NCBI RefSeq assembly: GCF_000194625.1
Contig: NC_015320.1
Location: 1,286,612-1,350,611, forward strand
Reading direction: 5' to 3'
DNA length: 64,000 bases
DNA from: Archaeoglobus veneficus SNP6
Lineage (GTDB): Archaea; Halobacteriota; Archaeoglobi; Archaeoglobales; Archaeoglobaceae
The notes under the pieces were generated by a model. That model was not told the DNA's origin, did no database searches, and saw only the letters and a program-made list of their open reading frames with translations. This document shows positions 1 to 33,272 of the stretch, in pieces. Position numbers and translations under genes: made by a program. The number at the start of each line of letters is the position of its first letter. Positions within the stretch are counted from its first letter, which is position 1.

Positions 1-149
1 TCGAATTTGCACGAAACCTTGACTATTTTGGAATAATTCTCACGACAGAGAGAGACAACGAGGGGGCAATTAGTCTCTTTAAAAAGATGGGTTTCGAAGT
101 AATCGGCGAGGAAGGCGGAGTGCAGATGTACCTCTCACTCGAGTGTTAA
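1..149 (+). CDS. GNAT-family N-acetyltransferase, C-terminal fragment
   Basis: The window opens inside this gene; 48 codons and a TAA stop remain in the frame that begins at base 3. The visible part contains ERDNEGAISLFKKMGF, the usual last helix and strand of GNAT acetyltransferases, where the Asn and the following helix contact acetyl-CoA, followed by a short terminal strand. The substrate cannot be deduced; RimI-like protein acetylation is one possibility. The end overlaps the convergent PP-loop gene by 4 bases. Confidence 0.7.
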   Translation, partial: EFARNLDYFGIILTTERDNEGAISLFKKMGFEVIGEEGGVQMYLSLEC

Positions 150-736
150 TCAATTTTTATTTCTTCCACCAGTTCCACGAGTCCCGAAACATTAACAGGC
201 TTTATTTCCGAAAGTTTGGCCTTTGTGACCGGGTTTTTCGGCACTGCACTGCATTCGTCACCCTTCTCAATGGAGATCTCGTACGTTCCGATTTCCTTTG
301 CTATGCCGATTATTTCATCCTTGTCGAAGCCTATCAACGGCCTCAGCACCGGTATTCTGACCGCTGCATCTTCTGCCCGCAGGTTCGGAATAGTCTGGCT
401 CGCCACCTGCCCGAGGCTGTCTCCTGTCAGAAGCGCTGCACAGCCTATCTTTTCCGCGAGCATCTCAGCTATGCTGAGCATGCCCCTCTTACAGTACACA
501 CACGTGTACCTGTCCTTCGGTACAAGCTCGATCAGCCTCGAGTGAGGAATCACGAAAATTCTACCTGAGCCTCCGTATTCCTTCAATTTCGATGCTAATC
601 TGATTGCCTTATTTACACTCGCGCTTCCCATCGAGAAATGCAGGTATTCAACACTGCAACCCCTCCTGAGCATGATGTAGCAGGCTACGGCTGAGTCTAT
701 ACCTCCGGAAAGGAGAGCAAGAATTTTCATCTGCAT
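146..736 (-). CDS. thiI: Stand-alone PP-loop domain of ThiI-type tRNA 4-thiouridine synthetase
   Basis: About 196 residues matching only the C-terminal catalytic half of ThiI, which activates U8 of tRNA by adenylation before sulfur transfer. The protein starts almost directly at the ATP-binding PP-loop LALLSGGIDSAVA. Further on are a CxxC (CVYC) and the family motif GDSLGQVASQT. The N-terminal ferredoxin-like and THUMP domains are missing here; a separate gene at 31090-31932 carries them. ATG at 736 is preferred because GGTGAT lies just before it; an in-frame GTG at 754 is less likely. It follows the transporter gene at 771-1979 by about 35 bases and is probably cotranscribed with it. Sulfur could equally be used for thiamine; that is not shown by the sequence. 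Confidence 0.85.
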   Translation of the reverse strand: MQMKILALLSGGIDSAVACYIMLRRGCSVEYLHFSMGSASVNKAIRLASKLKEYGGSGRIFVIPHSRLIELVPKDRYTCVYCKRGMLSIAEMLAEKIGCAALLTGDSLGQVASQTIPNLRAEDAAVRIPVLRPLIGFDKDEIIGIAKEIGTYEISIEKGDECSAVPKNPVTKAKLSEIKPVNVSGLVELVEEIKID

Positions 737-770
737 GGTATCACCCGTAATCACATCGACAGCACTTCAA

Positions 771-1979
771 TCATACCACCTGAAAGACCTTAAGAGCTAC
801 CACATAGCATGCCGTTCCAAGGACGTCCATGAACGACGTTATGAGAGGAATCCCAACGTTGTCGGGGTCGAGACCTTTTTTGAAAGAGATTATCGAGAAG
901 TAGTAAGACATGGCATCTATCATCAGCATTAAGAGCTGTCCTGCCAGCAGAGTTACAAGAACCATCTCGATCAAAGGGATTGTGGGAAGTGAAAGCATGA
1001 CATTAACAGCATAACCTATAACGCCCACGAGAGAGAATATAACGAGGGCTATGACGTGCATGGCCCCAAAGTTGAGCAAAACATCCTTTTGGGGTTTTAT
1101 ACTCGGCTCAAGCAAACCGAGGTGTAGCATGGTGGAGAATCGGGCTGCAAGAATTCCGCCCATGGCTCCACCATCCTCGAGAAAGGCAGGAACTACAGTA
1201 AGCAGACCTGCAATGGCTATGAACTTGTCGAGTTCTCCGCCGAGGATGGCCCCAGCCCCAAACTGCAGAAACGTGCAGACGGCAAGGATAGGCATACTTT
1301 CCCTCACGATTCTCAAGCCCATTTCAGATCTGCTGGCGAAGAGGAGGAGCAGAGAAGTAACGAGTATCAGCACAATCCCATAGGCTTTGTACGTGGTTTC
1401 CATCGAAATGACGGCATCGGCTGCGACGAAAATGAGGGGGAGAGTTATCAGATCACCGAAAAGAGTAATTAAGGGGGCAGTAAGGTTGTCGGGATTCCAC
1501 CCCCAGCGAAAGCTGCCTATTGCAAGCATGAGTGTTGCAGGAATCATAAGCGCTGCGGACAGAAAGGCCGATATAGCGGAAATCAAAATCAGATCTATAC
1601 ACACGTTCTCAACGTTTAGGCTCAAACCCATTATGTACGCTACCACCGCCGCAAAAGCGCCGTTAACAACGCTGAAGACGAGAAGGAGGAAAGTTGACGA
1701 AGAAATGTTTTTGAGAACAAGGGGGTTTGCCTCCAATCTGGGAGCAATTCTGCCAGTGTGAAGGTACGAGCCGAGCCTCGAGCCGAGAGACGCGTAAATG
1801 TTGCCTCTCAGCCCTATGCTCGGCGGGATGAGTAGTATCAGAGCGGGGATGAGTCCGAACTTTGCTGAAGAGTGGCCCATAACAACGCCGGTAATAAGAT
1901 CTCCGAACGTACAGAGAATGAGGGCCACGAGACTTTCCTTCACGTCCCTGAAATTCATTCGAATAGAATCGATAGGCAC
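771..1979 (-). CDS. MgtE/SLC41-type divalent cation transporter with two fused membrane domains
   Basis: A 402-residue, very hydrophobic protein with about ten membrane segments. It is an internal duplication of the MgtE membrane domain: each half has a proline-rich PPSIGLRGN- or PAFLEDGG-like segment and ends in a DPDN motif followed by a GDL or SFMD helix (GWNPDNLTAPLIT and GLDPDNVGIPLIT). The cytosolic N and CBS domains of bacterial MgtE are absent, as in the SLC41 group, so Mg2+ or a related divalent cation is the likely substrate. GTG at 1979 is the longest start but touches the GGAGGT; ATG at 1958 (MNFRDVKES) is possible. The leader contains a short palindrome over the ribosome site. 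Confidence 0.8.
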   Translation of the reverse strand: MPIDSIRMNFRDVKESLVALILCTFGDLITGVVMGHSSAKFGLIPALILLIPPSIGLRGNIYASLGSRLGSYLHTGRIAPRLEANPLVLKNISSSTFLLLVFSVVNGAFAAVVAYIMGLSLNVENVCIDLILISAISAFLSAALMIPATLMLAIGSFRWGWNPDNLTAPLITLFGDLITLPLIFVAADAVISMETTYKAYGIVLILVTSLLLLFASRSEMGLRIVRESMPILAVCTFLQFGAGAILGGELDKFIAIAGLLTVVPAFLEDGGAMGGILAARFSTMLHLGLLEPSIKPQKDVLLNFGAMHVIALVIFSLVGVIGYAVNVMLSLPTIPLIEMVLVTLLAGQLLMLMIDAMSYYFSIISFKKGLDPDNVGIPLITSFMDVLGTACYVVALKVFQVV

Positions 1980-29798: not shown

Positions 29799-30242
29799 CT
29801 AAATAATAGCATTAAACGCCCCGATAGTCGTAAGAGTGACGATAACTCCGGCTACAAGCACCCCAGCAGAAATAAAGACAAGCGCCTTTCCGGGACTGAG
29901 ATTCAGGAGAGTTGCAAGCAATGCTCCTGTCCAAGCCCCCGTGACGGGCATGGGAATTGCAACAAAGAGAGTAAGCCCAAAGTAGCCGTATCTGTCAATC
30001 AAACCCCGCCTTTTAAGGGTTCTCTTCTCAACCCACGAGAGTGCGCGGGCTGTAAACTTCCATTTAAATGCAATTGTTCTGATGTGATGGAGTAGAAGTA
30101 GCAGAATCGGGACTGGTATAAGGTTCCCGGCTACGGCTATAGCGTAGGCTTCGAGCGGTGGATATCCTCTGTACAGTGCCAGAGGTATCGCCCCTCTAAG
30201 CTCCGAGACGGGCATCGCCGCTAAGAAGATAATATCGAGCAT
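29799..30242 (-). CDS. COG2426 small multidrug export-like membrane protein
   Basis: 147 residues with about four membrane helices. Family marks are AAMPVSELRGAIPLAL near the start, with the ExRGAIP motif, and a re-entrant PMPVTGAWTGALLA. It belongs to the putative small multidrug export group, distantly like DedA proteins; the substrate is unproven. The start overlaps the end of the ketopantoate reductase gene by 22 bases. Confidence 0.8.
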   Translation of the reverse strand: MLDIIFLAAMPVSELRGAIPLALYRGYPPLEAYAIAVAGNLIPVPILLLLLHHIRTIAFKWKFTARALSWVEKRTLKRRGLIDRYGYFGLTLFVAIPMPVTGAWTGALLATLLNLSPGKALVFISAGVLVAGVIVTLTTIGAFNAII

Positions 30243-31093
30243 TCCAGCCCCCTCACAAGCCTCAGCATTAATTCGTTGACGGGAGTTTCAACTCCAAGCT
30301 CCTTTGCTTTCCTCACGATTTCTCCTGTTATAGCTTCTATTTCCGTTCTTCTTCCTCTTTCGATGTCCTGAAGCATAGACGATCTGTTTCTGGCAGTTTT
30401 TGTTGCCACCTCCCTAACCAGCTCAACCGCGTTGAGTTTATAGCCCATCGCCTTCATAACTTCCTCACATTCCTTTGCAATCGATTCAGCGACATTCCAC
30501 ACATCCTCAATCTCGACTATCTTTCCATTTTCAACCCTAAGAAGTGCGGTAAGAGGATTAATTGTCGCATTTATAACAGCTTTTTCCCACTTCTTTCTTT
30601 CTATATCTTCCACAACCTCTACATTCATCCCGGCCTTCTTCAGAATTTCGGCAACAACACTTGCTCCTTCTCCCTTCCAGTCGCCGAGATACGTAATTCC
30701 CTCGCCCGCATAGCAAACAACGCCGTAGTCAACGAGGTTTGCTGCATAGCTTGTTACACCTCCAACCACGTTATCCACCTTTTCCGTAAGGATATCCTCA
30801 TTTCCAATTCCGTTCTGGACTGTGCAAACGACTTCAGTTTTTCCCGCAAGCTGTTCTGCAGCGGTTTGGGTGTCGTAGCTCTTCACCGTAACGAAAGTCA
30901 CATCCGCCTTGCATGCATACCGCCTTGCGTCGATGGATATGCTGTCGTCGATCAACCCAGTTATGCGAAGTTCTTTCTGTAAAGCCTCAAGCTGCTTCCC
31001 CCTCGCAACGAAAACAACGTCAAATCCGGCTTTCTGAATGAAGTAGCCAAATAAACATCCAATTGCCCCGGCGCCAAATATCTGAACCTTCAT
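30221..31093 (-). CDS. panE: 2-dehydropantoate 2-reductase
   Basis: About 290 residues. The N-terminal Rossmann motif is VQIFGAGAIGCLFGY for NADP, followed by VTVKSYDT, CTVQNGIGNE, and the catalytic Lys in KKWEKAVINATINPLTAL; a helical C-terminal domain holds the later Glu and Asn residues. It reduces ketopantoate to pantoate for coenzyme A. ATG at 31093 overlaps the previous stop as ATGA, and GGGGAGG stands three bases before it. Confidence 0.88.
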   Translation of the reverse strand: MKVQIFGAGAIGCLFGYFIQKAGFDVVFVARGKQLEALQKELRITGLIDDSISIDARRYACKADVTFVTVKSYDTQTAAEQLAGKTEVVCTVQNGIGNEDILTEKVDNVVGGVTSYAANLVDYGVVCYAGEGITYLGDWKGEGASVVAEILKKAGMNVEVVEDIERKKWEKAVINATINPLTALLRVENGKIVEIEDVWNVAESIAKECEEVMKAMGYKLNAVELVREVATKTARNRSSMLQDIERGRRTEIEAITGEIVRKAKELGVETPVNELMLRLVRGLECSILSS

Positions 31094-31932
31094 TTTCCTC
31101 CCCATATTTCCCTGATCTTTTCCTCAACCTCCGAAGGTGTAAATGGAAGAAGGGGCATAAAAACGGGCATTTTACGTTTTTTAAGCAAATCAATATATTC
31201 CGAGAGCTCGTGAGCCAGTAAGGAACAGAAAATCCCCGGATAATTCATATCAAATGCCCTGGAGAGCTTTTCGCCTGTAGAGCCTTCGATAGGTACAACG
31301 TTTATGCGCCTGTAGCACGCCCATGGACGCAGGAGTTCGGCCTTTTCCTCACTTTCGACGTCTACGTCGCACCCCCTCCTCAGCGCATACCACGCAGCAA
31401 GGGGGTTGCCAACGGCAAGAACTCTCTCCTGCGTCCCCACCGGGAGCCCTCCATACCCCCTGAATATAGCAGTATATACATACGCAACGTCGTCCCTCAC
31501 TTCAATGAATATCTCCACGTCGGGGTTTTCCAGATTGACCTTTGCCCCAGTTGCTTCCTTTATCGCCTTTCCAGCAGTTTTCGCAACATCCATCGATGTG
31601 AAATCGTGAACTCCTGCTCTCCTCGCCCTCACAGCAAAGCTTCTCTCGATGCTGCCTGCCATCGTAACCGCAAGCTCCGCAATCTCGTCGAGTTCAGCCC
31701 TGCATTTCGCAGCAACGCTCGTTGAAACAACACCAAATATCTTTGCCACCCTTCTCGCAAGCTCCTCGCTATCGGAATGGATGTATATTCTCCCCCACTC
31801 TCTCGAAATTTCCCCAGAGAAGCCCTCAACCTTCATAACTCTCTTTATATTGCCAACGAGGATGTCTTCGAACCTCCTCCTCAATTTTCCTTTTAGCCCA
31901 AGTTCACCATACCTTACGATCACTACATCCAC
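31090..31932 (-). CDS. THUMP protein: ThiI N-terminal half with a decayed PP-loop domain
   Basis: 280 residues. Residues 1-165 match ThiI closely: ferredoxin-like start (VIVRYGELGLKGKLRRRFE), THUMP domain (AVRARRAGVHDFTS, KVNLENPDVEIFIEV) and the junction GGLPVGTQERVLAV. After this normal ThiI has SGGxDS, but here the text runs GNPLAAWYALRRGCDVDV, so the ATP loop is deleted while its flanks remain. The remaining 90 residues are a changed catalytic-like domain. The working PP-loop is a separate gene at 146-736. It should bind tRNA but not adenylate it alone. Confidence 0.85.
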   Translation of the reverse strand: MDVVIVRYGELGLKGKLRRRFEDILVGNIKRVMKVEGFSGEISREWGRIYIHSDSEELARRVAKIFGVVSTSVAAKCRAELDEIAELAVTMAGSIERSFAVRARRAGVHDFTSMDVAKTAGKAIKEATGAKVNLENPDVEIFIEVRDDVAYVYTAIFRGYGGLPVGTQERVLAVGNPLAAWYALRRGCDVDVESEEKAELLRPWACYRRINVVPIEGSTGEKLSRAFDMNYPGIFCSLLAHELSEYIDLLKKRKMPVFMPLLPFTPSEVEEKIREIWGGK

Positions 31933-32018: not shown

Positions 32019-33272
32019 ATGGACATCGAAGAAAGAGTCGGCATAGGCTGCTACATTACCTCAACGCCGGGCATGGGCGGAAGGATAAAGGAGAGCCCAG
32101 AGGATTTCTACGTCGAAGAGGTCGCGAAACTCAAGCTCAGCGATGAGGGACATTACGTCATAATCAGAGTTAAGAAGGTTAACTGGGACACTCTCAACTT
32201 CGCGAGGGTTCTGGCAAAAAAGCTCGGAATAAGCCAGAAAAGAGTTGAATACGCCGGAACAAAGGACAAGAGAGCCATAAGCGTCCAGTACTTCAGCATA
32301 AGCAAACTCGGCGAGGAAGATATCGAGAGGTTAAAGAACATCAGAATAAAGGACGCCGAAATCGAAATCGTCGGCAGGTCAAACAGAGGAATTGACCTCG
32401 GCGATCTCCTCGGCAACAAGTTCAGAATAAGGGTTCACGATGCGAGGGATGGCCGCATAGTCGAGTCCACGCTGAAAGAGCTGGATGAAAAAGGGACGCC
32501 AAACTTCTTTGGCCTGCAGCGCTTCGGAACCATCCGCTTTATAACCCATGAGGTCGGAAAGTACATCCTCAAGCGGGAATACGAGAACGCCTTCTGGACG
32601 TACGTCGCAAAGCCCTTCGAAGGAGAAAGAGAGGACATCAGGAAAATAAGGGAGGAACTCTGGAATACCCGCGACGCCAAGCTCGGGCTCAGAGAATTCC
32701 CATCATACCTGAGATACGAGAGAATTCTGCTCCAGGGACTCAGAGAGGGAAAAGACGAGGAGAGGGCGTTACTCGCTCTTCCAAAAAATCTGAAGCTGAT
32801 GTTCGTTCACGCATACCAATCCTACGTTTTCAACCGCCTGCTCACCACCCGCATAGAAGAATTTGGAAACCTTAAAGTCGTGCAGGAGGGAGACTGCGTT
32901 GGCTTTGTATCCTTCGCTGAGAGCTTCCCCGAATTGAAAGATGAATTTAGCTTCGTAAATGCAAACAGAAAGCGGGTGGAGTTTCTGATTTCCCAAAAGA
33001 GAGCATATCTTGCTCTCCCGCTGCCCGGTTACGAAACGAAAATGAAGGGCTGGGTCAAGGAGAAGGTGGAGGAAATCCTCGATGAAGATGGTATACGCCT
33101 GGAAGACTTCAGGCACGAACACAGAGAATTCTCCTCGAAGGGGAGCTACCGCGTTGCGGACATGCCCTTCTCCGATTTCACTTACGAGGACGGGTTGTTC
33201 TCATTCTACCTGCCAAAGGGCTGCTACGCAACGGTTTTGCTGAGAGAGTTTACGAAGACCTACCTTTTATGA
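32019..33272 (+). CDS. truD: tRNA pseudouridine synthase TruD
   Basis: 417 residues. The catalytic Asp stands in YAGTKDKRAISVQY (about residue 83), with the family pieces RIKESPEDFYVEEV, GTPNFFGLQRFG and the late FSSKGSYR. It makes pseudouridine at tRNA position 13. The ATG is about 27 bases after a TATA-like AAATTATACC, so it is probably leaderless. The end overlaps the convergent membrane gene by 23 bases. Confidence 0.95.
   Translation: MDIEERVGIGCYITSTPGMGGRIKESPEDFYVEEVAKLKLSDEGHYVIIRVKKVNWDTLNFARVLAKKLGISQKRVEYAGTKDKRAISVQYFSISKLGEEDIERLKNIRIKDAEIEIVGRSNRGIDLGDLLGNKFRIRVHDARDGRIVESTLKELDEKGTPNFFGLQRFGTIRFITHEVGKYILKREYENAFWTYVAKPFEGEREDIRKIREELWNTRDAKLGLREFPSYLRYERILLQGLREGKDEERALLALPKNLKLMFVHAYQSYVFNRLLTTRIEEFGNLKVVQEGDCVGFVSFAESFPELKDEFSFVNANRKRVEFLISQKRAYLALPLPGYETKMKGWVKEKVEEILDEDGIRLEDFRHEHREFSSKGSYRVADMPFSDFTYEDGLFSFYLPKGCYATVLLREFTKTYLL

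Follow-up and report, generated by a model that had tools for sequence, protein, structure and literature searches.

The window, that is the whole 64-kb stretch of DNA analyzed here, covers positions 1,286,612–1,350,611 of a closed genome that consists of a single contig of 1,901,943 bases and is 99.99% complete. It contains two ThiI-type genes, both on the minus strand. Gene 1 (146..736) encodes a stand-alone ThiI/TtuI-type PP-loop ATPase of 196 amino acids, the putative catalytic subunit of the enzyme proposed below. Its start was set to the ATG at 736; an alternative GTG at 754 would give 202 amino acids. The PP-loop motif SGGIDS (residues 10–15; 692..709) is intact, and on the same minus strand follow the CXXC motif CVYC (residues 79–82; 491..502), the GQVASQT signature (residues 109–115; 392..412) and C162 (251..253), the third conserved cysteine of the CXXC + C set. 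In ThiI of T. maritima, GQVASQT represents the ATP-binding loop at the dimer interface (PMC4041423). S10, G12, D14, S15, C79, C82, the GQVASQT signature (109–115) and C162 are invariant across 18 stand-alone homologues.

The Pfam model ThiI (PF02568) matches gene 1 with 213.7 bits at a cut-off of 20.5, and with SGGxDS and GQVASQT intact the protein shows the features of the PPase domain of U8 sulfurtransferases, while the Pfam domain search revealed no THUMP domain. Best matches among solved structures are ThiI proteins with E-values of 1e-33 and 1e-32. C79, C82 and C162 correspond to the CXXC + C pattern of the [4Fe-4S] TtuI subclass, and judged by its sequence gene 1 is a TtuI-class [4Fe-4S] PPase with these residues as putative cluster ligands. 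In M. maripaludis ThiI all three cysteines of this set are individually required and jointly hold an Fe-S cluster (PMC5372739). For this archaeal Fe-S class the cluster was later given as [4Fe-4S] and the enzyme was renamed TtuI (PMC9957541).

Families and genera are designated in the following by the codes of the genome search (f1, g1 etc.), in which f1 presumably corresponds to the Archaeoglobaceae. A gene for an MgtE-type divalent cation transporter is directly followed by gene 1 (together 146–1979, minus strand), an order that is repeated in genera g1 and g7. Catalytic subunits of g7 carry SAGIDS or STGIDS as PP-loop instead of SGGIDS, and STGIDS also occurs in one g85 member (L012, L016, L017, L071, L072, L069).

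Gene 2 (31090..31932, minus strand, GTG start) encodes the putative tRNA-binding subunit, a protein of 280 amino acids. It comprises an N-terminal ferredoxin-like domain, NFLD (residues 1–72; 31717..31932; PF22025, ThiI_fer, 73.2 bits), a THUMP domain (residues 73–155; 31468..31716; PF02926, 61.2 bits) and a pseudo-PPase domain (residues 171–280; 31093..31422), all on the minus strand. In the latter the fold core is kept, whereas SGGxDS, the CXXC helix and GQVASQT are lost, and the Pfam domain search gave no PP-loop match. Alignment with full ThiIs shows that NFLD, THUMP, the ThiI junction GGLPVGTQERVLAV and the GGLPVGT linker are kept, that GNPLA stands in place of SGGxDS and that the flank AAWYALRRG is retained. 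The PPase domain is shortened rather than lost: a stretch of about 30 amino acids that bears the CXXC helix and the GQVASQT signature is missing, and the C-terminal strand-helix of the PPase core (MPVFMPLLPFTPSEVEEKI) remains. These results confirm a preliminary description of the two proteins, which had reported a protein beginning at the ThiI PP-loop without THUMP and a second one with the N-terminal half and junction of ThiI but without SGGxDS between its flanks; the strand had been left unstated. With E-values from 1e-16 to 1e-63 for the matches, the domain assignments are not due to chance.

The AlphaFold model of the whole gene 2 chain has a mean pLDDT of 95.6 and a pTM of 0.90. The closest solved structure is PH1313 of Pyrococcus horikoshii (PDB 1VBK; phmmer 2.9e-26, Foldseek 6.9e-27), described as 'ThiI-like protein'. 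Both share the same layout, NFLD-THUMP followed by a shortened PPase fold without PP-loop or other catalytic motifs; they differ in tree position, as the THUMP of PH1313 does not group with the dead-domain proteins found in this phylum. Among 14 family members the mean pairwise identity is 45% for the dead domain compared to 49% for THUMP, and the dN/dS of the dead domain is approximately 0.18 in the one close pair that gives this value. By these measures the dead domain is apparently kept by selection. A sequencing error or a pseudogene can be ruled out by the open frame, by the same loss in family orthologues and by the purifying selection.

Gene 2 overlaps by 16 bp with an ApbA/PanE ketopantoate reductase-like gene (30221..31105, minus strand), which is not part of the enzyme. 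Gene 2, the PanE/ApbA-like reductase and a small multidrug-export gene form an overlapping row (29799–31932, minus strand) that is kept in the split genomes of Archaeoglobaceae and in f31. Upstream, in divergent orientation, is a gene for the pseudouridine synthase TruD (32019–33272, plus strand). No relative of gene 2 was found on viral contigs.

Compared with the NCBIfam ThiI model TIGR00342 (cut-off 264.5 bits for whole-protein ThiI), gene 1 reaches 211 bits and gene 2, aligned over its residues 4–192, 160 bits. The two genes jointly cover the model, each of them below the cut-off, and neither contains NFLD, THUMP and an active PPase in one chain. Genome-wide, no second ThiI-type PPase of comparable score was found, the other PF02568 matches having E-values of 1.1e-8 and 2.9e-4. 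No further ThiI-type THUMP gene was found in the genome either; two other THUMP genes sit in frames of 339 and 369 amino acids without a ThiI PPase. A complete ThiI elsewhere in the genome, which the preliminary description had considered as an argument against its reading, is thus absent from this closed sequence.

Distribution and natural fusions

Two profiles, one built on the dead domain and one on the stand-alone PPase, were used to search one set of 393 genomes from the phylum. With the PPase profile the two kinds of protein fall apart, stand-alone and fused forms scoring 225 bits or more and single-chain ThiIs 216 bits or less. A stand-alone or fused catalytic domain occurred in 24 of the 393 genomes, and 21 of these 24 also contain a dead-domain THUMP protein (Fisher p = 3.7e-27, uncorrected for relatedness). 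One of the 21, G206, was counted although its THUMP protein is cut by the contig end after THUMP, the dead domain being deduced from the tree position. The remaining three genomes (G043, G056, G220) carry the stand-alone PPase alongside an intact single-chain ThiI and no dead-domain protein, showing that a stand-alone PPase need not always partner a dead-domain protein. The reverse case, a dead-domain protein without PPase, was found in five genomes (G203, G201, G213, G071, G305), all of them at most 80% complete. The link between both parts also holds across dead-domain lineages that arose independently. No support comes from gene proximity, since genes 1 and 2 are located about 30 kb apart and the pair is unlinked in every split genome examined.

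In family f8 (G027, G037, G045, G007) a single frame of 501–520 amino acids comprises NFLD, THUMP, dead PPase and active CXXC PPase. In G017 the parts of this fusion are present in a broken frame. The fusion of dead and active parts is strong evidence of joint function. For the fused protein L032 a fold with pLDDT 75.4 and pTM 0.65 was obtained, a model too uncertain to read the packing of the dead and active domains; alignment A4, in which dead domains were matched to the active domain of the fused proteins, was kept out of folding. The assembly of G045 contains a separate dead-domain THUMP protein (L190, G045:C23) in addition to the fused form (L192, G045:C2), and due to its contamination of 5% both forms may stem from two organisms. 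A ThiI-type PPase inside an open frame of 843 amino acids (G334:C32:20748-21320) represents an unexplained long fusion.

CXXC is present in every stand-alone or fused catalytic domain of the set. Single-chain ThiIs of the same family vary by genus: those of g2 and g8 contain CXXC, those of g3, g4, g5, g9, g10, g11 and g86 do not.

Phylogeny of catalytic and dead domains

Separate trees of the PP-loop and THUMP parts, as suggested in the preliminary description, were built. A branch of the PPase tree, with a weak support of 76/72, has all 24 stand-alone or fused domains on one side, and the CXXC single-chain ThiIs are their sister. Grouping the stand-alone PPases of f1 with the CXXC single-chain ThiIs of g2 and g8 was rejected (p-AU 2.4e-4). 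The catalytic subunits thus appear, at this weak support, as a separate Fe-S (CXXC + C) group beside the Fe-S single-chain ThiIs.

The NFLD-THUMP tree gave a different picture. Dead-domain proteins are scattered over f1 (99/93), f31, f7 and a group of f8, f34 and the fusions (99/87), and those of f7 group with intact CXXC ThiIs of family f10 (100/94). A single clade for all of them was rejected with a p-AU of 2.5e-46, while f1 and f31 as one group were not rejected (p 0.166). As no single clade unites the dead-domain proteins, inactivation recurred. By these trees it took place at least three times, beside seemingly one lineage of catalytic proteins. The f7 proteins carry TDDISS for SGGIDS and still contain GSSLEQVAAQ; from these motifs they can be taken as an intermediate stage of decay. 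The duplication with complementary loss proposed in the preliminary description therefore names the right kind of process, but one event does not account for this lineage.

In f1 and f31 the gene 2 loci share the downstream ApbA/PanE and small multidrug-export genes, the former as a conserved neighbor marking the orthology of the locus in both families. Neither neighbor was found beside the single-chain ThiIs examined. On the EF-2 tree the split form occurs in f31, g85, g1 + g7 and g6. Non-CXXC single-chain ThiIs of most Archaeoglobaceae genera cluster with Nitrospirae ThiI (97/85; L158–L165 and others), which suggests that they were transferred from bacteria. Such a ThiI is also carried by G050, a member of genus g6, whose other genomes are split. 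Given its presence in the sister family f31, next to the same neighbors, the split form is probably old in Archaeoglobales; later it was probably replaced, several times, by the single-chain ThiIs of sister genera. One genome, G200 (contamination 4%), carries both split and single-chain forms.

A predicted heteromeric U8 thiolase and its relatives

In the T. maritima ThiI homodimer the contacts are mainly PPase–PPase, with THUMP excluded; NFLD and THUMP of one chain grip the tRNA by its acceptor stem and CCA end and place U8 in the partner chain's PP-loop active site (PMC4041423). With this as a model, we consider it likely that genes 1 and 2 encode the catalytic and the tRNA-binding subunit of one heteromeric [4Fe-4S] TtuI-class tRNA U8 4-thiouridine synthetase. 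Gene 2 would contribute the tRNA grip together with a PPase that lacks catalysis; the latter would dimerize with the gene 1 PPase and replace one half of the ThiI homodimer. Because the gene 2 PPase is dead, such a heterodimer would have one working active site. Gene 1 would adenylate U8 with ATP and deliver sulfur via its three-cysteine cluster. The physical complex, the dimerization through the dead domain and U8 thiolation are what we infer here; the role as dimer half would explain the retention of the dead fold. A two-subunit thiolase with a dead-domain THUMP subunit had been put forward in the preliminary description and is now supported, as a putative enzyme, by the co-occurrence in 21 of 24 genomes, the one-chain fusions in another family and the strong resemblance between PH1313 and the dead subunit.

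The loss of the GQVASQT loop from the dead domain leaves it without an element of the T. maritima dimer interface, and both proteins might cooperate through NFLD/THUMP contacts or the shared tRNA only. We regard this as rather unlikely, since ThiI dimers are held mainly by PPase–PPase contacts that exclude THUMP, and since the dead domain keeps a confident fold despite its lost catalysis with no other evident reason for retention.

Less probable still, gene 1 could be a self-sufficient thiolase or act on another substrate. Gene 2 would then be a decaying or repurposed ThiI, e.g. a tRNA chaperone or the THUMP partner of another enzyme, comparable to Tan1, which is the THUMP partner of an acetyltransferase. 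The three genomes with stand-alone PPases beside intact ThiI would fit, as would the status of the relatives of both genes: PRK08349 is unnamed, and a review (PMC9957541) calls PH1313 ThiI-like, its PPase domain being smaller and its activity unconfirmed. Against such independence stand the f8 fusion, which joins exactly these two parts, the tight co-occurrence over several dead-domain lineages, the purifying selection on the dead domain and the ThiI–RNA structure, in which THUMP places U8 (PMC4041423).

Simple fission of a single-chain ThiI would account for the fact that both genes jointly hold all ThiI domains, but is very improbable and was rejected: in agreement with the preliminary description, a remnant PPase persists in the THUMP gene, so that PPase-derived sequence exists twice, the dead-domain and catalytic trees differ in shape, and the fused forms carry dead and active domains in tandem. 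Membership of gene 1 in TtuA or TtcA, a further objection foreseen there, or in QueC is hardly credible and was rejected on scores, as the remote PP-loop resemblance to TtuA, at 27 bits, and to QueC, at 38 bits, is opposed by the far higher ThiI score, the ThiI structure matches and the nesting among ThiI PPases in the tree.

Compared with TtuI, the archaeal CXXC + C ThiI of Methanococcus maripaludis and Pyrococcus furiosus, the predicted heteromeric enzyme shares the PP-loop, CXXC with third cysteine and PPase family, with NFLD and THUMP present in the genome; unlike the single chain there, two genes are involved, one with a dead PPase domain. T. maritima ThiI (4KR6/4KR7), from which the tRNA-in-trans mechanism is taken, has the same domain set, but consists of two identical active chains with a single active-site cysteine and no CXXC cluster. 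A parallel and precedent in design is the eukaryotic U34 thiolase Ctu1/Ctu2 (Ncs6/Ncs2) with a catalytic [4Fe-4S] PP-loop subunit and an inactive paralogue, an enzyme thought to be derived from a homodimer (PMC10067955). PP-loop subfamily, tRNA position and domains are different, and in the present case the inactive subunit also bears the tRNA-binding domains. The fusions and the co-occurrence indirectly support such a pairing of active and inactive PP-loop subunits here.

On balance we lean towards a more general scenario, in which one stand-alone Fe-S PP-loop lineage repeatedly took over catalysis from resident archaeal single-chain ThiIs, each of which became a pseudoenzyme that kept the tRNA grip and a dimer half. 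Such takeovers would number at least three in one phylum, with graded decay and a fused form among their outcomes, and would resemble the way in which eukaryotic Ctu1/Ctu2 arose.

In the open literature we found no report of a two-gene ThiI/TtuI; an earlier mention of the split form may exist. The parts are already known as families without assigned function (PH1313; PRK08349/NF006222). The two-gene form would predict that an enzyme described as a homodimer also exists as a heteromer and suggest a function for two unannotated families, the PH1313-like and the PRK08349-like proteins. Genomes that seem ThiI-negative or contain a 'dead' ThiI may still be expected to make s4U8. It would also offer a tractable, thermostable system in which to ask why active enzymes retain inactive paralogues as partners, and in which several origins, independent of each other, can be compared along with intermediate stages and natural fusions.

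NF006222/PRK08349, a 'hypothetical protein' of approximately 198 amino acids, is like gene 1 a stand-alone ThiI-type PPase. With 202.4 bits at a cut-off of 251, gene 1 lies outside this family as a diverged relative. Scores above the cut-off were obtained for the G056 protein, with 295 bits, and for the fused protein of f8, with 281 bits.
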